This document shows, in pieces, positions 2,564 through 35,192 of a stretch of 35,192 nt of DNA. The translations under genes and the position numbers were made by a program. The stretch's first letter is position 1, and each line of letters begins with the position of its first letter. The stretch lies in contig NZ_JADEVE010000080.1 of assembly GCF_016125955.1 (NCBI RefSeq), positions 1 through 35,192 of the forward strand, read 5' to 3'. The notes beneath the pieces are model-generated. The model worked only from the letters and a program-made list of their open reading frames with translations, made no database searches and had not been told where the DNA came from. The stretch comes from Acetomicrobium sp. S15 = DSM 107314. GTDB taxonomy: Bacteria; Synergistota; Synergistia; Synergistales; Thermosynergistaceae.

Positions 2564-3643
2564 TTATTCATTATTTTCTCGCCTAAAAACCATATCACTG
2601 CATAACTTAACCCTTAAGTTATAACTATCACAATGTTTTAATAATCCGAAATATGATTGTACACTCGCATTAACTTCAGTGAAGTTGATTCTCCATTGAG
2701 CATATGCGCGTTGTAGAGCCTTTAGACGTCGTTTCATCTTTAAGGCTGTTTTTTTACGTAGTTTTTTATGGGTTGCCCATACTCTATAGCCGCAAAAATC
2801 AATGCCTTGGTTCACAATGTGAATAGAGGTTTTGTTGTTAAGGCTTAAATGTAATTGATTGTTTATAAATAAATCTATTTTAGTTTTTATATATTGCAGA
2901 TGTATTTTGTCAGGATGCAAGATAATAATATCATCCATATAGCGAATGTAATATTGTGTCTTCAATTCGTGCTTTGCGTATTGATCAAGCTCGTTAAGAT
3001 AAAGATTTGCGAACATTTGGCTTGTAAGGTTGCCTATAGGCATTCCTATCTTGCTAAGTCTTTCGTTATTGAAGCAATGATCTCCGAGCGATATACCGAA
3101 TTTTGTGTTCTCTGATCTAATAATCCTCTCCAAAAGCCACAAGAGGTCTTTGTCAGCAATTATGCGGCTAAGTATTTCCATTAACACATCATGGTCGATC
3201 CTATAAAAATATTTGCTGATATCCAGCTTAAGGGCATAAACTCTTTTATGTTTTCTCGATAAATATCGAAGCCAATACTGTAGCCTATCAGTGGCTCTAT
3301 GGATTCCGTAACCGATCCTGCAAGCATAACTGTCATAGATATAACGCTTATCCAAGAGTGGGTTTAGGACCCTATAGATAGCCCATTGCACCACTCTATC
3401 TCTGAAGGGTAGCGCCATAATCAGGCGCATTTTAGGATCATAAACAAAAAATTCCTTATATTTCCCAACCCTATAGGTTTTTTGCATGAGATCCTCTTGG
3501 ATGCAAATAAGATTTTCTTCCAGATTGTCCGTGAAGGCCATTACTTCATTTCTGAACCTTTTGCATTTGCGAGCATTGACATATGCTCCGAGAAGATTTT
3601 CGAAAGCATAGATTTTTGGATATAATTGTTTAAGTTTCTTCAT
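2564..3643 (-). CDS. Reverse transcriptase of the diversity-generating retroelement
   Basis: About 359 residues. The N-terminus (MKKLKQLYPKIYAFENLLGA) is typical of DGR enzymes. Further signatures are the LKLDISKYFYRIDH palm motif, the group-II-intron/DGR motif IGNLTSQ, the catalytic YMDD and the later GYRVW. It copies the nearby template-repeat RNA into cDNA while misincorporating opposite adenines, and the cDNA replaces the variable repeat of the target gene. An upstream TTG at 3694 keeps the frame open, but family members begin at MKKL, so 3643 is preferred. The gene is visibly more AT-rich than the structural genes, as is usual for DGR cassettes. It forms a unit with avd, TR and the target. 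Confidence 0.95.
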   Translation of the reverse strand: MKKLKQLYPKIYAFENLLGAYVNARKCKRFRNEVMAFTDNLEENLICIQEDLMQKTYRVGKYKEFFVYDPKMRLIMALPFRDRVVQWAIYRVLNPLLDKRYIYDSYACRIGYGIHRATDRLQYWLRYLSRKHKRVYALKLDISKYFYRIDHDVLMEILSRIIADKDLLWLLERIIRSENTKFGISLGDHCFNNERLSKIGMPIGNLTSQMFANLYLNELDQYAKHELKTQYYIRYMDDIIILHPDKIHLQYIKTKIDLFINNQLHLSLNNKTSIHIVNQGIDFCGYRVWATHKKLRKKTALKMKRRLKALQRAYAQWRINFTEVNASVQSYFGLLKHCDSYNLRVKLCSDMVFRRENNE

Positions 3644-3679
3644 TTCTTTTTCATTCTGCCTTATCATGCTCAAAAATAT

Positions 3680-3730
3680 TGCCGGGCATGACAACTTTCG
3701 CTTTATTGGCTACTAACTGCCTACCCGGCA
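3680..3730 (-). ncRNA. Structured spacer of the DGR template RNA
   Basis: Between TR and the reverse transcriptase lies a gene-free stretch of about 195 bases. It includes a 7-bp inverted repeat, TGCCGGG/CCCGGCA (3724-3730 and 3680-3686), followed on the minus strand by ATATTTTTG. In the Bordetella phage DGR the RNA downstream of TR is needed for priming and for binding the reverse transcriptase and Avd. This element sits in the matching place and may define the RNA 3' structure or its end. Confidence 0.45.
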
Positions 3731-3838: not shown

Positions 3839-3952
3839 AAGCCACACGGAACCCAATGTTGTTGTTCGAGTTCGAGCGGGAGTTGTTCAAGTTAAGAGCA
3901 AACAGACCGGCATTCGAGCCGTTGTTCCAGTTCCCGCCACGGAGCGGAAATC
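3839..3952 (-). repeat. DGR template repeat (TR)
   Basis: This 114-bp segment matches 4410-4523 at 101 positions. Twelve of the 13 differences fall at adenines of the minus strand (plus-strand T at 3860, 3863, 3865, 3866, 3871, 3884, 3887, 3893, 3923, 3925, 3926 and 3931), and one at 3890 falls at a T. The varied adenines are the first two bases of AAC codons, which allow many amino acids and no ochre or amber stop. It begins eight bases after the avd stop codon, the usual arrangement. Confidence 0.97.
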
Positions 3953-3960
3953 TCCTGAGT

Positions 3961-4317
3961 TTACGGCCTACCCCCAGAAATCTGTCTGGCCGATTTTAAC
4001 CAACCACCTATCATTCTTCCAATTTCCGAAGACATTTTCGACCAGTTTTCGTATTTTTTTACGGGCAGAAATTGTAAATCCTTGGCCAGTCGAACATAAT
4101 AATGCAGGATATTCAGTTGAACATCGGCTACTTGTATAGCTTTTATTTTGTAGTAATGCTTATTAGCTGTTATAATAGCCTCAAGTAGCTTAAACATCGC
4201 AAGTTTAGTTTCAGCAGCCAGAGTATGTCTTTCACTTTTAGGATATTGTCGTAAGCAAATATATCCATACTGGATCATGTCATAAGTTTTTTGTAGGATT
4301 TTCAATTCGTTGCCCAA
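3961..4317 (-). CDS. avd: Avd, accessory variability determinant of the DGR
   Basis: This 118-residue, mostly helical basic protein fits the Avd four-helix bundle (KILQKTYDMIQYGYICLRQYPKSERHTLAAE is the typical first part). Avd forms a pentameric barrel that binds the reverse transcriptase and the template RNA, and is required for mutagenic retrohoming. The start is a TTG with a GGAGG site seven bases upstream. The gene lies between the VR hairpin and TR, the canonical order in phage DGRs. Confidence 0.93.
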   Translation of the reverse strand: MGNELKILQKTYDMIQYGYICLRQYPKSERHTLAAETKLAMFKLLEAIITANKHYYKIKAIQVADVQLNILHYYVRLAKDLQFLPVKKYENWSKMSSEIGRMIGGWLKSARQISGGRP

Positions 4318-4342
4318 CGTCCACCTCCGGAAAGAACAAGAA

Positions 4343-4374
4343 AAAAGAGCTTGACAGGCTTCCGCCCGTCAAGC
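4343..4374 (-). promoter_or_regulatory. DGR retrohoming hairpin with GGAA tetraloop, also terminator-like
   Basis: Eleven-base arms (4364-4374 and 4349-4359) pair except for one G-T position and close on a GGAA loop. GRNA-loop hairpins just downstream of VR are a known cis-acting feature of DGR targets that raises retrohoming. Here the stem begins 35 bases after the end of VR and 24 bases after the target stop codon. The following TCTTTTTTC on the minus strand also makes it a plausible intrinsic terminator, which would separate target expression from avd and RT. Confidence 0.8.
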
Positions 4375-4398
4375 AGATCTCAATTTCCAGGGCTCAGA

Positions 4399-5475
4399 TT
4401 ACCCAACAAAAGCCACACGGAACCCAATGTGGTAGGGCGAGCTCGAGCGGGAGTAGTACATGTAAAGAGCAAACAGACCGGCATTCGAGCCGTAGAGCCA
4501 GCTCCCGCCACGGAGCGGAAATCGGGATCCATAATTCCGTACCCATAAGGCACCCTTAGGATCCATCGAATATGTGCCATCTGCCAATGTAATAGGCGCG
4601 ATAGCGGCCTGCAGCATCAGCGATGGTATCGTATAATCAGCTTTTTTGGTCAGATTTTTCCAATTGGTAATATATGTATATCCATAGTTGTTTGAATCAT
4701 TTCCCACAGGCCCGGCATAAGCAGTTATGGCATCTGAAATTATTGGGTCTCCTATATCTCCACTACTGCTTTCATCGCCTGATGCCGATGAGTTAAATCG
4801 AACGTTTGTATCCGGCCAATCTTCTTCAAGCATATTTAAATTGTTATCGGAAGGCATGTAGATTTTCCCATCAACTAATTTCAGGCCCCCTACCCACTCC
4901 GAGACATTTCCCACCATATCAGCGATTCCGGCGAATGTGTTATTGTGCCTCCATGCCGCCGGGCCCGATCCTGCCAGGATTCTGGCCTCTCCTGTGGTAT
5001 TTCCAGGAGTTCTACCATCTTGCCTCCTTCCAGTTTCGTAGGTTGCCTCATGAGACCTTCCATAATTCGTATTCCCACGAGGTTGAAAATTATTCTTGAT
5101 GCACCACAACGCAATGGCAGCCCACTCCCAATTAGTCATTAAATGCCATCCGCCACCTTTGGCGTTACATGCGGCCTTAGCATTATCATAATTTATGTAT
5201 GTCGTCGGATCCACGTTTGGCAACGAACATGCTCTGCCATCATAGACCTTGCTCTGATATGCACCGATGAAGATCTCCGGTTTTTCTATTCCTCCTGTTT
5301 TAAAAGCTGGATGTACGCCACTTCCATAGACGGGGTCGATATCCTCGAGGTTGAATTTAGGAATTCTCACCATATAGCTCGGGTATCCCATATCATCGTA
5401 CAATACCGTCACCTGCCCACCCGTAGCAGCTTCGACAGACGACCTCAGAGTATCCTTCGTGAAAATAATAGGCAT
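4399..5475 (-). CDS. DGR target: FGE-sulfatase/C-type-lectin-fold receptor-binding protein
   Basis: The 358-residue protein has a short N-terminal part (1-75) and then a formylglycine-generating-enzyme-like domain, a C-type lectin fold. Markers are HLMTNWEWAAIALW (about 111-124), GNVSEWVGG and, near the end, RGGSW and GFRVA. Residues 318-355 are encoded by VR, and ten asparagines of the TR version are changed (S325, L327, Y328, Y338, Y340, Y341, S345, P347, Y348, H349). The fold displays these on one ligand-binding face. Position at the end of the fibre genes suggests it is the adhesin at the tail tip. The start is one base past the previous stop. It is a binding protein; catalytic activity is not expected. 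Confidence 0.92.
   Translation of the reverse strand: MPIIFTKDTLRSSVEAATGGQVTVLYDDMGYPSYMVRIPKFNLEDIDPVYGSGVHPAFKTGGIEKPEIFIGAYQSKVYDGRACSLPNVDPTTYINYDNAKAACNAKGGGWHLMTNWEWAAIALWCIKNNFQPRGNTNYGRSHEATYETGRRQDGRTPGNTTGEARILAGSGPAAWRHNNTFAGIADMVGNVSEWVGGLKLVDGKIYMPSDNNLNMLEEDWPDTNVRFNSSASGDESSSGDIGDPIISDAITAYAGPVGNDSNNYGYTYITNWKNLTKKADYTIPSLMLQAAIAPITLADGTYSMDPKGALWVRNYGSRFPLRGGSWLYGSNAGLFALYMYYSRSSSPYHIGFRVAFVG
4410..4523 (-). repeat. DGR variable repeat (VR)
   Basis: This is the copy of TR inside the target gene. All adenine-directed changes lie in the first two positions of AAC codons, and the C at the third position is always kept. The 3' part of VR (coding GFRVA, 4412-4430) is identical to TR and serves as the initiation-of-mutagenic-homing region. 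Beyond 4523 the two sequences diverge at once. Confidence 0.97.
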
Positions 5476-5476
5476 C

Positions 5477-5815
5477 TCACACTACCTCCTTTTCGGCTTC
5501 TTCATATCTCCATAAAACAAGCTCTACGGCTTCAAGGTCGATCGGGAGTTTTCGTCTTAGAAAAACAGGATTTTCATGTTCATCTATTTCTCCAGAATCG
5601 ACCATTTCATATCTTGCCGGCGGAATCAAAATAGATGCAACATATCTGTCGCCAAGACCAATAACAAGGTCTTCGCCCCTCGTGCAAATGTCGATTATTA
5701 CTTGACTGTCTTTTTGCTCTGATTCAAGATCGAGCGCTATGTCGCCAATAAATAGAATCGTTCCATCAATTGTCCATTCGACATGTGGTTCAGGCTGAAT
5801 CTTTTTTACAATCAT
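5477..5815 (-). CDS. Unrecognised acidic protein of the fibre region (112 residues)
   Basis: The product is acidic and predicted to be largely beta (VEWTIDGTILFIGDIALDLES, then VIGLGDRYVASILIPPARYEM), with a final charged helix (DLEAVELVLWRYEEAEKEVV). It sits between a fibre protein and the DGR target and ends one base before the target start, so expression is coupled. Small proteins here are often fibre assembly chaperones or adaptors that hold the adhesin. That role is an inference from position only. Confidence 0.7.
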   Translation of the reverse strand: MIVKKIQPEPHVEWTIDGTILFIGDIALDLESEQKDSQVIIDICTRGEDLVIGLGDRYVASILIPPARYEMVDSGEIDEHENPVFLRRKLPIDLEAVELVLWRYEEAEKEVV

Positions 5816-5842
5816 ATTTTCACCACCCTTATATATAGCGCC

Positions 5843-6757
5843 CTATAAATTCAGTTTCCTGATAGTCCATCTAATTTCAATGTTATCAGCCATGCCATTT
5901 GCGCAGACTTTGAATCCATTTGAAGCTCGTTCATCGGCGTATATGTATCCAAGCTGATATCCACCTCCATCAAAATCAATAACGTCGAGATCGACAGAAT
6001 AATCGTTGCCCAGCACATTGAAAGGTAGCGCTACATAAACGAAGGGGGCATTCAGAAAGGTTTTTGGAGCATTTGGCTCTATTCTACGAATATCTGTTAG
6101 AATTATGTTTTCGAGATAGGGATCAACAGCTTCCGTACTGCCCGCAGGCACAGTTATTCTATATAAGGGAACTCCATTGTCTGGAATGCTGCCACCTAAA
6201 TCTGTGCAAAACGCTTCCCAGCCTCTTGAGCCCAAACCAAGATATATATAACAAATCTTGTCTAATCCAGAATAGTTACTCGGGATCGCTGCGCCATTCG
6301 TTTCTTCGCTTATTGGGACTAACATTCCCCCAACAAAGATAGTTCCTTCCTTAAGATTGATATTTCGAGTCGCAGATGTTGATTTCTCTATTGTGCAACC
6401 AGTTATTACACCTTTGTTCGAGATGGTAATTGTCCCCGATTGAAACCGCATAGAAAGGGTCTTTACGAGTTCTCTATTCGCCAATCCACCTAAATCGATA
6501 GCCTGAAGCAGGGAGGATATGACAGTATTTTGCATATCAGAACTAATGCCTTCCACTTGCTGCTCCAGATAATTCATCATTTCCGCTAAGGTAGGCTTAT
6601 CCCCCTTGGCTTCACTGATTTCTGTTTCGCACCCGGACAATCTTGTGTCCACGTTATTGAAATTTGCATCTATCTTGTCATATTTTTCATTCCATGCCGA
6701 CGGAATAGCTGGGAACTGATCCGGGTGTCTCCCTATAGTGCTATGAGGCAAGGCCAT
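5843..6757 (-). CDS. Tail fibre protein
   Basis: This 304-residue protein opens with HSTIGRHPDQFPAIPSAWNEKYD, a short helical segment with a coiled coil (about 25-75, LSGCETEISEAKGDKPTLAEMM), then beta-rich sequence to the end. The layout (N-terminal attachment, trimeric coiled coil, beta-structured shaft) is typical of short fibres in P2-like tails. A GGAGGTGA site precedes the ATG. It follows the collar-like protein and precedes the DGR module, so it may link the adhesin to the baseplate. No enzymatic domain is visible. Confidence 0.7.
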   Translation of the reverse strand: MALPHSTIGRHPDQFPAIPSAWNEKYDKIDANFNNVDTRLSGCETEISEAKGDKPTLAEMMNYLEQQVEGISSDMQNTVISSLLQAIDLGGLANRELVKTLSMRFQSGTITISNKGVITGCTIEKSTSATRNINLKEGTIFVGGMLVPISEETNGAAIPSNYSGLDKICYIYLGLGSRGWEAFCTDLGGSIPDNGVPLYRITVPAGSTEAVDPYLENIILTDIRRIEPNAPKTFLNAPFVYVALPFNVLGNDYSVDLDVIDFDGGGYQLGYIYADERASNGFKVCANGMADNIEIRWTIRKLNL

Positions 6758-6772
6758 TACTAATCACCTCCA

Positions 6773-7153
6773 TTAGAATCTGATTTTTAACTCTACTTCA
6801 TATGTTTCATCCACGTCCTTGATTTTTGGGGAAAAGCACCTAAATCCTATAAGGTCTCCGTTAGCGTCCAACAACCCTATCTCCGATATTTGTGCACCGA
6901 CCAGCTCGTCCCTTTCAAGCCTGCCAATACCCGTAACGCTCATGGAATCTTCTTGCATTATATTGTTGAGTTCCTTTCTCAGCCTTTCGTTATAAAGGCT
7001 TTCGCGCGCCGGGTCCATGGCTTTAGGGCTCAAATCAGAATTATGTCCCCCATCACCAAAAGCCATGAATCTAATCCTGGGTAGCGGGCTTTCGTTATAC
7101 ATGTGCCTTGCTATTTTTTCCCTAAACCGGTTTATTACCACGGCCTCAGCCAT
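6773..7153 (-). CDS. Tail-collar-fibre-like N-terminal protein (126 residues)
   Basis: The sequence IRFMAFGDGGHNSDLSPKAMDP followed by LYNERLRKELNN and EIGLLDANGDLIGFRCFSP follows the pattern of P2 gpH-type tail-collar domains (DUF3751-like: a GDG turn, alternation of short strands and a KxxDxxYxVELKIRF end). In P2 this domain is the N-terminus of the fibre. Here it is a separate gene with its own GGAGGTGA site, so attachment module and fibre are split. It probably joins gpI to the fibre. Confidence 0.65.
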   Translation of the reverse strand: MAEAVVINRFREKIARHMYNESPLPRIRFMAFGDGGHNSDLSPKAMDPARESLYNERLRKELNNIMQEDSMSVTGIGRLERDELVGAQISEIGLLDANGDLIGFRCFSPKIKDVDETYEVELKIRF

Positions 7154-7168
7154 ATCTTCACCTCCTCG

Positions 7169-8509
7169 CTATAATTGCATAATTTCCATCGTGGCTCTTG
7201 GTCCTGCATCACCTACGTTCCAGGAACCATCAATAGAAACATTGTCATATCCGACCAGAATGCCTCCCACCGGCGCAATATACTGACTATTGATTGACAA
7301 ATTCCCGAAACTTCTGAGCGGATCAAGCCCTACGTACCATGACCCGTTAGCGGTTATCCCAAACGGTGAGGCCCCCACAATCCAGGCACCATCGGCAATC
7401 TGGCCATTGATGAGCAGATCGGCCAAGGTTTGTGGAGTCTTTGCGTATTCCCACTCCCATTGCATCCTATGCGTCTCGGTCCATTGTGGCTCTTGTAAAT
7501 TCGCGGATATATTAAAGCTCACGCTATTTCGCGATACGGCATTAATCATATTTGCATGCCCAACAATCCATGAGCCGTCGACGCGCAGAGGCATCCTGTC
7601 GTCTTGGGCCAATGCCATAGGATGCCCAATGATTGCTATATGCGGGATAACAATCAAATGTCCTTGTGCCATACATGGGTATATCGTTTGTATGGGCTTG
7701 AAGAATATCAATTCTCCAACATTCCAGGAGCCGTTGACGACTAAATCATCATTTTTATCGATCATGTATGGCTTTGGATCGGGCCCGACAAACCACGAGC
7801 CGTCAATCATCAATCTGCACCACGGATAATATTCTTCTGCTTGTATATGCGCATACAAGCTTTCCATGATGAGTTTCGTGAAGACTTGCATGTTAAACTC
7901 AGCGGCCAGAACATAAAAATACAATGGCCAGGCTCGAACTGGTTTCATCTCTTCTATTGCCCATCGTATTTGGCTGAGCGATTTGTGGTTTGCCATCTCC
8001 GCCAAGTCGAGTTTTATAGAAAAGTTGGCCCAATGTGGAATGTCCGGCAACCCAGCCACGTCAATGCTTCTACTGATAATTCGCGGTGAAATATATGCTA
8101 CATCCCATGTTCCGTCGGCGAATAGTATCCCAGCATTTATGTAAGCTTGCCTAACTTCATGATATTCGAATAATTCGACGTTTTTGTAGCCCAACGAACT
8201 TAATAGACTAAGAATGCCGGTTTTTGTTCCTTTCAATCGATGCCAAGCCACAAAATGAATTATCATATTCCGCTTCGTTTCGTCATCCCAATCTGAGTCA
8301 TATAAGTCTACGTGAAACTGCCATGCGAGCAGATCCAATACATTACCCGTTAATATATCAATTTCGGGGATAATAATCGATCTATGCGTTTCCGAAAAAA
8401 CATCCCGAAAAGATACGTCCAAAGCGGCTGAAGTGCTCTGGATTTCTTTATCGTGCGTCAGGCTTTCTGGAAGGATCTCAAGTAGGCTGATCTTATCCAG
8501 CTCAGTCAT
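7169..8509 (-). CDS. Baseplate tail protein I with long repeat-bearing C-terminal extension
   Basis: The first 200 or so residues match P2 gpI (ESLTHDKEIQSTSAALD, LLAWQFHVDLYD, HRLKGTKTGI), the baseplate wedge protein that carries the fibres. P2 gpI stops there; this protein runs about 240 residues further. The extension repeats a DGSWxVG-like motif; counting from the upstream ATG at 8524 it begins at residues 241, 264, 316, 378, 393 and 432, with a related DGTWDVA at 137. The repeats look like beta-hairpin units and could form a fibre docking arm. The ATG at 8509 overlaps the gpJ stop and is chosen over the ATG at 8524, which lacks a ribosome binding site. Confidence 0.85.
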   Translation of the reverse strand: MTELDKISLLEILPESLTHDKEIQSTSAALDVSFRDVFSETHRSIIIPEIDILTGNVLDLLAWQFHVDLYDSDWDDETKRNMIIHFVAWHRLKGTKTGILSLLSSLGYKNVELFEYHEVRQAYINAGILFADGTWDVAYISPRIISRSIDVAGLPDIPHWANFSIKLDLAEMANHKSLSQIRWAIEEMKPVRAWPLYFYVLAAEFNMQVFTKLIMESLYAHIQAEEYYPWCRLMIDGSWFVGPDPKPYMIDKNDDLVVNGSWNVGELIFFKPIQTIYPCMAQGHLIVIPHIAIIGHPMALAQDDRMPLRVDGSWIVGHANMINAVSRNSVSFNISANLQEPQWTETHRMQWEWEYAKTPQTLADLLINGQIADGAWIVGASPFGITANGSWYVGLDPLRSFGNLSINSQYIAPVGGILVGYDNVSIDGSWNVGDAGPRATMEIMQL

Positions 8510-9623
8510 CTTCGATCCCGCCATAATTTATGATTATCGCTAATTCTTTGGCGACCTGGTAAGGATTAAGTGTTTTGAATTGCGGCTGTATAATTTCGAC
8601 CCTTTTTGCGCCTGCACCAATTACACGTCGGACCAATTCAGAGGGATTAATATCCCTCCCGAGTTTTGTTTTTTGCCATAATATAAACTCCTGTATGGCT
8701 TGATTGACAGCATCTACTATCATCGCTGAAATCGTGGCGTCGCTTTTTTTTACAAAAAATGTGAGATTGATAGTATATGGGATTTGTTCTGGAGCATGTA
8801 TATGCACATAGTCAGTTAGAGGTCGCTTGTCATCGGCAGAACAGCTCTCATCGATCAGCGATAATATTTCCTGACTTGGTAATTCTCCATCTTGCATTAA
8901 CGCGCAGATGTTAACTTGACCAGGTACCGGCGAATAGACCTTAACGTCACTGATGTCCTGATGTGCAGCTAAAGCCCAGTATTCATACGCTTTATATGGT
9001 CCCGCCGTCGAAAACGTTTCGGGAGCCAATCTTATACGATTTCTTAAAGATTCATCCTCTTCTTGTTCTTTCCCTCCCATAGTTTCTGCAATATTCACAA
9101 CTGATTCGATATAAGGGATAGGATCGACCAGTTTTTTAATTTGCCCGGGGATATATCCATTGCCGACTGAACCTACTTCCATACATTCTGCCATAACATC
9201 AATTGATATATTGCCAGCCAAAACAATCGCAGGTGCTGATGTTGCGAAAAAGAGCGTTCCATTAGGTGTTGCTCGGGTTCCTTGCGGAATAACCACCTCT
9301 CTTTCTTGCGGAGCAGACAATGTAAATCTAAGCGTTGTCTTTGCGGCTGAAGCCTCAAGCCGATAGACTCCTAACAGGATTCCAAGATGATCCAAATAGT
9401 CACCAGACGAATAAGCCAGCAGATTCTGCTTCGCCGCGAAATCGATCAATACCCGCTGCTGGGTAATAATTGCCGCAACCGATTCAAGGAATAGGCGGAC
9501 TGGATCTCCGGCTGCCAGGCTTCGTCCGGATAGCGATTCATATTTGGCGATAACCTCCGCTTCAACAATCCGTGTGTCTGTCTCGCAAAACGAAATTTCC
9601 GGAAGTTTCGTGATATCACTCAT
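8502..9623 (-). CDS. Baseplate assembly protein J
   Basis: The 373-residue product shows the BaseplateJ pattern: N-terminal EVIAKYESLSGRSLAAGDPVRLFLESVAAIITQQRVLIDFAA, the central YSSGDYLDHLGILLGVYRLEASAAKTTLRFTLS and the ETMGGKEQEEDESLRNRIRLAPE motif. Together with W and I it builds the wedge of the contractile-tail baseplate (T4 gp6-like). Its ATG overlaps the stop of the W gene, and its end overlaps gene I. Length is in the normal range for P2 gpJ relatives. Start and family are clear. Confidence 0.93.
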   Translation of the reverse strand: MSDITKLPEISFCETDTRIVEAEVIAKYESLSGRSLAAGDPVRLFLESVAAIITQQRVLIDFAAKQNLLAYSSGDYLDHLGILLGVYRLEASAAKTTLRFTLSAPQEREVVIPQGTRATPNGTLFFATSAPAIVLAGNISIDVMAECMEVGSVGNGYIPGQIKKLVDPIPYIESVVNIAETMGGKEQEEDESLRNRIRLAPETFSTAGPYKAYEYWALAAHQDISDVKVYSPVPGQVNICALMQDGELPSQEILSLIDESCSADDKRPLTDYVHIHAPEQIPYTINLTFFVKKSDATISAMIVDAVNQAIQEFILWQKTKLGRDINPSELVRRVIGAGAKRVEIIQPQFKTLNPYQVAKELAIIINYGGIEDD

Positions 9624-27004: not shown

Positions 27005-27715
27005 TTAGGCCTGTTTTTGTGACGTAAGAAGGGGTTTTTGGAAGACCCCCGTGTCTTTCGCTCTGACCGGAAATGCCTTTTTTGTTCTGTATGTAACTGT
27101 TTGATATGCCGCAGCGTGATCATCCTGGGTAATGCCGATATACCGAAGGGTGATCTCCGGAGTGCTATGCCCGAAAATCTTTTGCAGAACGGCAATGTCT
27201 CTCGTTTTACGGTAGAAGTGATATCCGAAAGTCTTTCGCATGGTATGGGTTCCGACCCGCTCCTCGATTCCGCATGCCTCCGCGGCCATTCGCAGGATTT
27301 CCCATATCCTTATACGGCCCAGTGCCCTCGTCTCGCCGTTTTCGCCCAGCCTCCGAGAAGGAAACAGCGGTTCCGACAAATCCCATTGCGATATGGGCGA
27401 AAGCTGAGATTTGATTACATATTCGAGTTCTGTCCCCTTGATTCGTATGATTCGCTTCCTGTTCGTAATCGTCCTTGCCTTGCCTTTTTTGCGCGTTTTC
27501 TGTTCAAGTATCCATATTTCCTTTCTCCACCTGCGCGCTCCGGACTTAAACTCCTCGATAATGTCACCGAACGTCAGCCGACGAAGATCCGAAACGCGAA
27601 GACCGGTGTGGATTCCAAACTCGAATAGCAGATAATATACGGGATTCCACCGCCCCAGATACTCCGCAACCGAGACGACATCAGCCCGATTCCTGATCGG
27701 CTCGACATATTCCAT
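27005..27715 (-). CDS. int: Tyrosine recombinase (integrase), short form
   Basis: About 236 residues, lacking the usual arm-binding domain. The catalytic domain has the first arginine in HTGLRVSD, a beta-hairpin with a lysine (TITNRKRIIRIKG), HTMRKTFGYH (box II His and Arg), FGHSTPEITLRY with the final His and nucleophile Tyr. It would integrate the circle into the host chromosome, perhaps at the tRNA-like core at 673-693. The ATG at 27715 has GAGGTG upstream. It is separated from the early operon by a terminator and may use its own promoter. Confidence 0.9.
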   Translation of the reverse strand: MEYVEPIRNRADVVSVAEYLGRWNPVYYLLFEFGIHTGLRVSDLRRLTFGDIIEEFKSGARRWRKEIWILEQKTRKKGKARTITNRKRIIRIKGTELEYVIKSQLSPISQWDLSEPLFPSRRLGENGETRALGRIRIWEILRMAAEACGIEERVGTHTMRKTFGYHFYRKTRDIAVLQKIFGHSTPEITLRYIGITQDDHAAAYQTVTYRTKKAFPVRAKDTGVFQKPLLTSQKQA

Positions 27716-27761
27716 TGGCAACACCTCTATCAGGCAAGGAGACTAACGACAGGATGGAAGA

Positions 27762-27800
27762 GCAAAAAATAAAGACCCCCTGCCAAAGCCGGGGATCTTT
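27762..27800 (-). terminator. Intrinsic terminator at the end of the early operon
   Basis: On the minus strand AAAGATCCCC (27800-27791) pairs with GGGGTCTTT (27779-27771) with one bulged A, and is followed by ATTTTTTGC. It would stop early transcription before the integrase gene, which begins about 50 bases later. Confidence 0.75.
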
Positions 27801-27853
27801 GAACATTCCGCCACAATACAAGTTTACTCGCAAATCCAATATTAACAACCCCC

Positions 27854-27937
27854 TTAAGGGTACCATTAAGGGTACCATTAAGGCTATCGTTAAGGGTACC
27901 ATTAAGACTCTCGTTAAGGGTACCATTAAGACCGTCA
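27854..27937. repeat. Seven tandem copies of a 12-bp repeat
   Basis: Units of TTAAGGGTACCA start at 27854, 27866, 27890 and 27914 as exact copies, alternating from the third unit on with diverged units at 27878, 27902 and 27926 that keep TTAAG. The period is strictly 12 bp. GGTACC makes each exact unit palindromic in its core. The array lies between the last early gene and the terminator. It could be iterons for replication initiation, arm sites for the integrase, or a coding repeat of four residues on the plus strand. Confidence 0.9.
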
Positions 27938-27952
27938 TCAAAAATTAGCCTA

Positions 27953-28459
27953 CTAATACTCGCCCAACTTCCAGCCGGCCACAGGAGCTAATACCGCAGC
28001 TCTGGCAATTGCCCGCGGAACTTCCTGTCTTCGCCGTCGTATAGTGCTTTCGCTCACATTGTGCTTGATCGATAGATTCCGCATTTGCGATTCCTGGAGC
28101 CTTGAATGCCCGCGCATCGAATCTATCCAAACCACATGATCGACGAATATCGCCCAGCTTTGCGGGAAGGATTTACGATATTCCTTCGCTGCGGTGACAA
28201 TTCGCTCCCAACCTCCTGCATAATCAAGGATTTCGTCTATCTTGTCGGCCTTGAAAATCAACGACTCCTGTGGTGCATGGCCTAACGGAGTTAAATCCAC
28301 TCTCTCGTTTTCTTTTGATTGATCCTGAAATGGCGCTATTATATCAGCCAACTCACTTGATGATGGAGGAGGCACCTCTCCAGAAAGAATTCGCAGGCCC
28401 TGAGGATGATAGATAACGACGAATTCGATAATATCCGCAACCTGTCGTATCCTGTTCAT
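27953..28459 (-). CDS. HTH protein at the end of the early operon, possible regulator
   Basis: About 168 residues. The first part (RIRQVADIIEFVVIYHPQGLRILSGE) is not recognised. The C-terminal part (about 120-160) has a helix-turn-helix pattern, LQESQMRNLSIKHNVSESTIRRRRQEVPRAIA, as found in sigma-like or ArpU-type late regulators. Coming last in the early operon, it is a reasonable candidate for the activator of the late promoter. A GTG at 28480 overlapping the dnaC stop is an alternative start; the ATG at 28459 has AAAGG close upstream. Confidence 0.7.
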   Translation of the reverse strand: MNRIRQVADIIEFVVIYHPQGLRILSGEVPPPSSSELADIIAPFQDQSKENERVDLTPLGHAPQESLIFKADKIDEILDYAGGWERIVTAAKEYRKSFPQSWAIFVDHVVWIDSMRGHSRLQESQMRNLSIKHNVSESTIRRRRQEVPRAIARAAVLAPVAGWKLGEY

Positions 28460-28476: not shown

Positions 28477-29391
28477 TCACATGACTTGCCTAAGGCGCCA
28501 ATCAGGCCCCGTCATGGTAATCCACCTGCAGAGTTCCGCGAGGCGCGAAACTATCCGCCGGCCCATCAGCCCACCATAATGACTCGATATTTCATCAGGG
28601 TCAGTTAAATTCGTCGTCACGAATGTCAGCTTCCTGTTTCTCATACGCTGGTCCAGAACTTGAAAAACCCGCTCAGCAACCCATTCATACTTCGTCGATT
28701 CAGCCCCGAGATCATCAAGGATCGCCACATCTGCTGCTATTACAACCTCCGCCGGGTCCAATCCGGTTTTGGTCGCAAACCATTTTCTGGAGGCATCTAT
28801 CAGGTCCGGCAGGCTCACGAAGACTGTATAGCATCCTGCTTCCAGCGCAACTCTCGCGAGGGCCACCTCCAGGTGGCTCTTCCCAACCCCAGGAGGGCCC
28901 ATAAGCATTAGCCCCTTGAGCGGTAGATTGCCATTCAGGATCCTTTGCCCTATTTCGATCGCGGCTTGGCGGGCCACCTCGGTCCCCTCCGTCTTCTCGA
29001 AGCCGTTGATCGTCTTGTCGCTCAGGTTCTCCGGAAGCCTCGCAGCTTTCAGCGCCGCTTTCATTCTCCGTTCGGCATTTGCCGATCTCGCTCTCTTGCA
29101 CGGCCTGTACGTGAGATATATCCTTCCGCCCGAGGCAGTCGCCACAGGCTGCATCCCTTTGAGCTGACACGCTGCCAGTCCTTTGCATTCCTGACAATAT
29201 TTCATTTCCCTGTCCAGTCTTATCAGTGCAAACGCATCCGATTCCGAGGGCGCTTTCACCATCTCCGCCGCTTTGGCCATATACGCTGCCAGATCCTGCT
29301 TGAGCAGCGATTCTCTTCTGCTGTTCCCACCATTCCCGGTATTGGTCGGGAAGTCGTTCTTTGTCTCGTTTATCGCTATTCCCTCCGGCAT
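28477..29391 (-). CDS. dnaC: DnaC-type helicase loader (AAA+ ATPase)
   Basis: 304 residues. The N-terminal part contains CQECKGLAAC, a small Cys motif common in phage DnaC-like loaders. The ATPase follows with Walker A GPPGVGKSH (about 173), Walker B AILDDLG, and VTTNLTDPDEISSHYGGLMGRRIVSRLAE (sensor and arginine finger). It loads the host replicative helicase at the phage origin together with the upstream initiator. The ATG has AGGAGGG seven bases before it. About 675 bases of its length are also open in the initiator frame. Confidence 0.93.
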   Translation of the reverse strand: MPEGIAINETKNDFPTNTGNGGNSRRESLLKQDLAAYMAKAAEMVKAPSESDAFALIRLDREMKYCQECKGLAACQLKGMQPVATASGGRIYLTYRPCKRARSANAERRMKAALKAARLPENLSDKTINGFEKTEGTEVARQAAIEIGQRILNGNLPLKGLMLMGPPGVGKSHLEVALARVALEAGCYTVFVSLPDLIDASRKWFATKTGLDPAEVVIAADVAILDDLGAESTKYEWVAERVFQVLDQRMRNRKLTFVTTNLTDPDEISSHYGGLMGRRIVSRLAELCRWITMTGPDWRLRQVM

Positions 29392-30151
29392 CCCTGCACC
29401 CTCCTCTCGTCGAAGTTTTCTGGTATTGCAGGCTGTTCAGCAGATATCCCGCCGTCAGTTCGGTCAATGGACGCCCTTTTCGCTTGAAACGCTCCTCCGC
29501 CGTAAGGAGTTCTTTTTGCACTCTCGCAGGCGTGTGGAGCTTTTCCAGTTTTCGGAAAGCCATAACCTCATCCCACGAAAGACCGCTCCTGGAGGTCTTG
29601 AACAACAGAAGCTCCGCCGTGGGCCTCATGATTTCTGGAACACTTTTAGCATCGTAAGGGGATGTCTCCTCATGGTTAGGTTTCTGTTGTGTTTCAGGCT
29701 CGGCCTTTTGGGCGCCGGAAGTGTTAGCTTCCCCCGAAGGGGTAGTATTTATATCTCGTTCATTGGTTATAGTTCTATGGCTATAGTTCTGTGTGTCTGT
29801 GTGGCACACCGGGTGTGTCTGTGTGGCACACCCCCCGTGTCCCTGTGACACACCCCCCTTAAGGATATATATTGAGGTTTGCCCTTTCTCGCCACGATAT
29901 TGATGTTGAATGTATCCTTTATCCTCGAGGGTCCTGAGTGACCGGTGAACGGTCCTATACGAACAACCGGCCCGTTTCATAAGAGCCTTAACCGATGGGT
30001 AACAGGTGCGCCCCCTGGTGGACGCGAAAGAACAAAGCGCAGCATAAATAGCCTTGTCATAAACTGAAATAGTCTCATCGGTCATAACGGCAATATCCAG
30101 AAAACAAAACCAAAAATCTCGTGAATCTTGGATTTCCACGGTTTCAGACAC
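28715..30151 (-). CDS. Winged-helix replication initiator (end uncertain)
   Basis: The conserved part is a winged-helix domain (about 25-95 of the product: TDETISVYDKAIYAALCSFASTRGRTCYPSVKALMKRAGCSYRTVHRSLRTLEDKGYI), then a polar linker and a second helical unit (about 180-250, LTELTAGYLLNSLQYQ). Such proteins bind the phage origin and recruit the helicase loader. The frame does not stop where expected near 29391 but stays open to 28715, inside dnaC and out of phase. The last 225 or so residues are Gly/Asp/Arg-rich and look like an out-of-frame reading. The GTG at 30151 with AAGGGG upstream is preferred to the ATG at 30184. Confidence 0.8.
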   Translation of the reverse strand: MSETVEIQDSRDFWFCFLDIAVMTDETISVYDKAIYAALCSFASTRGRTCYPSVKALMKRAGCSYRTVHRSLRTLEDKGYIQHQYRGEKGQTSIYILKGGVSQGHGGCATQTHPVCHTDTQNYSHRTITNERDINTTPSGEANTSGAQKAEPETQQKPNHEETSPYDAKSVPEIMRPTAELLLFKTSRSGLSWDEVMAFRKLEKLHTPARVQKELLTAEERFKRKGRPLTELTAGYLLNSLQYQKTSTRGGCRDAGGNSDKRDKERLPDQYREWWEQQKRIAAQAGSGSVYGQSGGDGESALGIGCVCTDKTGQGNEILSGMQRTGSVSAQRDAACGDCLGRKDISHVQAVQESEIGKCRTENESGAESCEASGEPERQDDQRLREDGGDRGGPPSRDRNRAKDPEWQSTAQGANAYGPSWGWEEPPGGGPRESCAGSRMLYSLREPAGPDRCLQKMVCDQNRIGPGGGCNSSRCGDP

Positions 30152-30156
30152 TGCCT

Positions 30157-30846
30157 TCACCCCTTTTGTCCCACAGGCGACCATGCTTCACATTGCTTGA
30201 AGTGAAAAGGCACTCCGGCCTTTTGGCATTGACCTATCAAAGAGCTTACTCGATCAGGATGCACCTGTCCGGTATCATGACTGGGTTCATTGCCGCACAT
30301 TACCCAGTCAATAGTCCTAAAATTCGTGATCCAACCAGGGGCGTGATCACCACCGTATCCATCCTTGGCAGGATATTGTCTGGGGTTGAGCCACTCGAAA
30401 ATATCTATCTCTTCAAACAACGGCTCACAGTACACGAATCGGACCGCAGCGCGAATGTCGAGTAAAATAGGTATCCTGTCATCAGCAGTGCGCTGGTTTT
30501 CGATGGTCACGCCCAGCCAAACATTTGGAAAAGCTCGATTGAAAGTATCTGTTTCTGCCTCTAATCGTTCAACGATCCGTTTCATACGTTCCGGCCTTTT
30601 CGTTAAAAGCATGAAGGTATGACGTCGACATTCGATGGAATGCATCACTGAAAAAACTGCCTCGAGCCACTGATCAGGCACATCTTCATGAAACAGATCT
30701 CCCATACTGCAGACGAGGATCTTTCCCGGCTTATTCCACTTCAATGGCTGATCCAATATATCCTCACGAAACACCAATGCCGGGGGACAACCCGTGATCG
30801 GATCCCAGATGGTATCAATCCATTTGATCCTTGAATTGTCAAACAT
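30157..30846 (-). CDS. Phage Gp37/Gp68 (DUF5131) family protein lacking the Cys cluster
   Basis: The 229-residue product has the family's IKWIDTIWDPITGC start, PLKWNKPGKILVCSMGDLFHEDVPDQWLEAVFSVM, LLTKRPERM, WLGVTIENQ, VYCEPLFEEIDI, IDWVMCGNEPSHDTGQVHPD and VPFHFKQCEAW. Family members usually have about 40 more residues after the first GC, with a CxxCYA-type motif; here the sequence passes straight from DPITGC to PPALVFRED. The function is unproven even for complete members, which look like radical-SAM or metal enzymes. The ATG at 30846 follows AGGAGG. Confidence 0.88.
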   Translation of the reverse strand: MFDNSRIKWIDTIWDPITGCPPALVFREDILDQPLKWNKPGKILVCSMGDLFHEDVPDQWLEAVFSVMHSIECRRHTFMLLTKRPERMKRIVERLEAETDTFNRAFPNVWLGVTIENQRTADDRIPILLDIRAAVRFVYCEPLFEEIDIFEWLNPRQYPAKDGYGGDHAPGWITNFRTIDWVMCGNEPSHDTGQVHPDRVSSLIGQCQKAGVPFHFKQCEAWSPVGQKG

Positions 30847-34915: not shown

Positions 34916-35148
34916 GGCTTGTCCCGCACGGGCACTATAGGGTTTGAATAGATTAGAGAAAAAAGTGATCCACTTTCAAGACCAAGCGTTGTTTCAAGCG
35001 CGGCTATATTTTTTGCATCAGTAGGTGGATATTTTTCGGTTTCCCAGGCGTATATTGCTGACCGCGATACACATATCTTTTCTGCAAGTTGTTCTTGTGT
35101 AAGGTGCTTACGCTTGCGTGCTGAGCGTATAACTTCTCCGTATCCCAC
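34912..35148 (-). CDS. XRE-family repressor (short)
   Basis: 78 residues, nearly all one HTH domain: RSARKRKHLTQEQLAEKICVSRSAIYAWETEKYPPTDAKNIAALETTLGL. It binds operators and is the likely lysogeny regulator. It lacks the usual cleavage or oligomerisation domain after about residue 65; a frame of similar tone continues after it in another phase. The start is GTG with GGGGGG eight bases upstream. The first codons lie in the terminal repeat, so its promoter is at the left end of the window (142-240). Confidence 0.85.
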   Translation of the reverse strand: MGYGEVIRSARKRKHLTQEQLAEKICVSRSAIYAWETEKYPPTDAKNIAALETTLGLESGSLFSLIYSNPIVPVRDKP

Positions 35149-35192
35149 CTTGTTTACCCCCCTTCAGATGCTAACTGTACTATGAAAATATA
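35052..35192. repeat. Terminal direct repeat, right copy (contig overlap)
   Basis: Identical to 1-141 at every base. It contains the GTG start and ribosome binding site of the XRE repressor. Joining the copies gives a circle of 35,051 bp. Confidence 0.95.

Follow-up and report, generated by a model that had tools for sequence, protein, structure and literature searches.

Does the pair of 114-nt repeats lying near a reverse transcriptase gene in this 35,192-nt stretch of DNA (the window) belong to a diversity-generating retroelement (DGR), which protein would that element rewrite, and is it still at work? We are highly confident that it is a complete DGR of the BPP-1/VHML type, carried by a temperate phage with a contractile tail and rewriting the variable repeat (VR) of a target of the TaqVP family. 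The features on which this reading rests are the following:

2564-3694, minus strand: DGR reverse transcriptase, 376 aa (PF00078, 7.9e-21; phrog_1423, 1.8e-139; YMDD and IGMPIGNLTSQ motifs)
3839-3952, minus strand: template repeat (TR), 24 adenines, with 10 AAC and 1 AAT as in-frame codons
3961-4317, minus strand: avd (accessory variability determinant), 118 aa (PF22296 bAvd, 4.4e-33; phrog_3206, 1.3e-36)
4349-4374, minus strand: hairpin/cruciform-forming inverted repeat, 11-bp stem (one G.T), GGAA loop, 35 nt after VR
4399-5475, minus strand: DGR target (variable protein), 358 aa, TaqVP family, FGE-type C-type-lectin fold (PF03781, 4.6e-8; phrog_2889, 6e-126; model and structure matches)
4410-4523, minus strand: VR, target codons 319-355
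5477-8524, minus strand: upstream tail genes, encoding a phrog_8734 protein, a 304-aa protein, a tail-collar-fibre N-terminal-like protein, and a Tail_P2_I protein (domain and phrog matches)

Aligned without gaps, TR and VR differ at 13 of their 114 nt (six A>T, four A>C, two A>G, and one T>A), and 12 of these differences fall on TR adenines (p = 5.7e-9, hypergeometric, 24 adenines in TR). Among the 90 non-adenine positions of TR, a single one differs in VR, at codon 339, where TTG is replaced by ATG. All ten AAC codons of TR (325, 327, 328, 338, 340, 341, 345, 347, 348, and 349) are altered in VR, their third-base C being unaltered throughout. The preliminary description had given these coordinates and counts, with which the realignment agrees, as well as the ten changed codons and the untouched C; missing from it were the TTG-to-ATG difference at codon 339 and the eleventh AAY codon of TR, AAT at codon 331, which is the same in VR. 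The eleven AAY codons correspond to a computed ~8.7e12 possible protein variants. Identity between the repeats is lost sharply at both edges of the 114 nt: their 3'-terminal 21 nt are identical, divergence begins right after, and no distinct IMH* was recognized there. A search covering all 2.44 Mb of the assembly revealed neither a third TR/VR copy nor a second target.

In the direction of transcription, the target (5475-4399) is followed by the hairpin (4374-4349), avd (4317-3961), TR (3952-3839), and the reverse transcriptase (3694-2564), the last lying outside the range of 3839-5475 covered by the preliminary description. The reading frames of target, avd, and reverse transcriptase are all open, and the reverse transcriptase has an intact catalytic YMDD as well as an IGMPIGNLTSQ motif, which we take to be typical of DGR reverse transcriptases. 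The GGAA loop of the hairpin fits GRNA, and its DNA fold (z = -3.29) was equaled by only 3 of 200 shuffles. Published phage DGR hairpins have a stem of 7 to 10 bp and a GRNA loop and lie 4 to 34 bp from VR (PMC3240598); with its 11-bp stem at 35 nt, the present one is slightly beyond both the stem-length and the distance range, and we count it as a DGR hairpin. Such a hairpin follows VR in 55 of 78 TR/VR loci, the window included, and follows TR in none of the 78. Since reverse transcriptase, avd, TR, VR, hairpin, order, and adenine bias were each tested and found, the complete DGR in canonical order claimed earlier is upheld.

Two further observations concern the surroundings of TR. A 13-bp helix around TR in the RNA fold of the window was considered as a TR-flanking duplex and discarded, the whole fold being no better than shuffles (z = -0.9); likewise, TR-flanking RNA pairing was rejected as a common feature (mean z = -0.2 over 78 TRs). 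Separately, short motifs recur beside TR in many loci whose sequences are otherwise different (e.g., L002, L024, and L082), GGGGA/GGGA-like before TR and GCCAGA/GTCAGA after it, and may be part of a TR-RNA signal.

Related loci bear on the activity of such elements. We recovered 77 other loci with TR/VR pairs under a filter requiring that at least 75% of the TR/VR differences lie at adenines, a filter that favors the adenine pattern. Across 77 equal-length pairs, differences were seen at 62% of first-position and 44% of second-position AAY adenines, versus 0.8% of non-adenines. Pseudoalteromonas phages ACA1 and ACA2 and the prophage proACA1-A show no difference over 900 upstream positions, whereas 11 to 19 of 26 TR-adenine positions differ; the corresponding figures are 1/900 versus 16/23 for the pair L028/L029 and 0/898 versus 8/23 for L050/L051. 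Such near-identical elements are the most stringent test of activity, and with 0 to 1 upstream differences per ~900 and 8 to 19 of 23 to 26 TR-adenine positions changed, they show that the DGR family is active. L082 and L083, which are among the relatives nearest to the window, differ at 12 of 22 TR adenines and at 6 of 91 other positions, with an upstream divergence of 9.6%. The contigs L084 and L085, which come from different data sets, share 4,424 identical nt, and L085 breaks off (at position 8481, against L084 position 4424) immediately ahead of the first diversified VR codon, as expected if mixed VRs in a population broke the assembly, among other possible causes of a contig end. It counts against our reading that the targets of the closest relatives of the window phage are only ~75% identical and that one of the 13 TR/VR differences lies off the adenines. 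A terminase search of IMG/VR for the same phage gave best matches only 33 to 54% identical. The recent activity put forward in the preliminary description therefore stands for the family, through the adenine variation of VR in near-identical relatives, and for this copy present activity is what we infer.

It is unlikely, in our estimation, that this DGR was once active and is now inactive in this phage, with VR left as a frozen variant. One non-adenine difference has accumulated, and inactivation does occur, as seen from the frameshifted reverse transcriptase (PMC10612066) of the related prophage proACA1-A, where the annotation of this gene is missing; however, the open frames of target, avd, and reverse transcriptase, the intact YMDD, the low count of non-adenine differences (1/90), and the presence of the hairpin speak against such decay. 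The cassette of this complete DGR is real and looks functional.

An AlphaFold2 model of the target (42-sequence alignment; mean pLDDT 95.7) matches TaqVP, the variable protein of a Thermus aquaticus prophage DGR, better than any other solved structure (PDB 5VF4; TM-scores 0.91/0.86). The profile match to TaqVP covers the full length (E = 1.1e-117), and the two proteins are homologous over their full length with 42% identity in the Foldseek alignment; the next structural matches, the Treponema variable protein (2y3c) and Bordetella Mtd, are much weaker. These results bear out the FGE/C-type-lectin fold with VR at the C terminus that had been proposed. When the profile alignment is set against the published list of TaqVP variable residues (PMC6328139), 7 of the 10 changed target positions coincide with D348, N351, Y361, N364, S368, R370, and G372, and the unchanged AAT codon 331 aligns to V354. 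The Thermus aquaticus prophage has the same order of target, avd, TR, and reverse transcriptase; it differs in its phage and host, and the window has three extra AAC positions (327, 340, and 348). TaqVP is a monomer (PMC6328139), which we count against our explanation. By analogy with TaqVP and other DGR variable proteins, the changed positions would be exposed and would form a binding site.

Where this target acts is indicated by its genomic setting. Positions 1-141 and 35052-35192 form an exact 141-nt terminal direct repeat, so that the contig probably represents an entire phage genome, circular and 35,051 bp in size, rather than an integrated prophage with host flanks; its link to the host genome was made by binning. 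The gene set (terminase, portal, capsid, tail tube FII, baseplate J, GPD hub, holin, endolysin, integrase, repressor-like, and antirepressor genes) is consistent with a temperate contractile-tailed phage. Elsewhere on the contig, a seven-copy array with 12-nt spacing at 27839-27953 encodes a KGTIK-like peptide repeat within a plus-strand open reading frame (ORF; 27715-27948), opposite to the annotated phage genes. On the minus strand, the ORFs of an HTH_36 protein (28715-30184) and an IstB/DnaC-like ATPase (28477-29391) overlap by ~680 nt in different frames (28715-29391); either an ORF limit is wrong or the overlap is genuine.

The target comes straight after baseplate/tail-fibre genes in the same transcription direction. 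In L095 and L096, N-terminal tail-fibre domains are fused to a target homologue, and the gene order is alike in the cultured Vibrio phage VHML, Pseudoalteromonas phages ACA1 and ACA2, and Pseudomonas phage Bise. The position after the Tail_P2_I and tail-collar-fibre-like genes, these fusions, and the arrangement in cultured phages favor a tail adhesin over any other role by a wide margin, in agreement with the preliminary description, and the target would be located on the virion. That the lysogen instead produces it as a surface or secreted protein, its diversification serving the host cell, is very improbable. DGRs do diversify cellular proteins (PMC8144416), and domain and phrog searches recognized no tail-attachment domain on the 358-aa target itself, which we likewise count against our explanation; yet the gene position and direction and the fusions in homologues point to the tail, and the homologous ACA antireceptor was seen by mass spectrometry in a preparation with cellular contamination (PMC10612066). 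As for how a tail adhesin of this kind is held, it is possible, albeit rather doubtful, that the small upstream gene at 5477-5815 attaches it, giving an interchangeable two-piece receptor-binding tip diversified by the DGR.

Comparison with cultured phages extends these likenesses. The DGRs of VHML and ACA1/ACA2 (PMC10612066) have a homologous target 42 to 45% identical to ours, a downstream reverse transcriptase, and adenine-biased VR differences, and in ACA1/ACA2 avd is downstream of the target, as here. In the ACA phages, the reverse transcriptase has an N-terminal extension translated from TR (PMC10612066), whereas here TR lies between avd and the reverse transcriptase, 144 nt ahead of the listed start of the latter. 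Bise (OR683401) shares the order of baseplate J protein, target, four-helix-bundle protein (avd), and reverse transcriptase; its target, annotated as hypothetical, is 43% identical to ours, and the TR/VR pair that we found there has 9 of 9 differences at adenines. Bordetella phage BPP-1 (Mtd/Avd/Brt) shares the order, a GRNA-loop hairpin after VR, adenine mutagenesis, and a C-type-lectin-fold target, but Mtd is a trimer with additional beta-prism and beta-sandwich domains (PMC6328139) and has only remote fold similarity to our target (Foldseek E 8e-4, TM 0.3). An ordinary duplication beside an unrelated reverse transcriptase (group II intron, retron, or defense enzyme), for which RVT_1 alone would allow because it is common to all these enzymes, has practically no chance of being correct, since avd, the adenine-only differences, the hairpin, and the gene order are DGR specific and the enzyme matches phrog_1423 at 1.8e-139, the adenine bias and avd already contradicting it.

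For the complete DGR, we propose that the DGR reverse transcriptase, together with Avd, would copy a transcript across TR and misread its adenines. The resulting mutated cDNA would then take the place of VR in the 3'-terminal part of the target gene, with the 3' end common to TR and VR and the hairpin just downstream as guides. As TR stays unchanged, the process would be repeatable. The variable face of the target would most likely be the receptor-contacting tip of the tail. The lack of cross-infection among ACA phages has been tied to their antireceptor (PMC10612066), and our own ACA comparison agrees with that published analysis; by analogy with BPP-1 and ACA1/ACA2, changes in the target may alter host recognition and allow receptor switching.

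More than 30,000 DGRs are already catalogued, phage host-attachment proteins being among their main targets (PMC8144416), and the general picture is therefore unchanged. Our literature search found no paper on DGRs with Synergistetes. With its anatomy, target, and mechanism all within described examples, the element is an ordinary DGR. Our study adds one DGR, on a phage that is probably complete and circular and that was binned with a bacterial genome; by tying the target to a solved structure, it allows the variable residues to be placed on a real fold.
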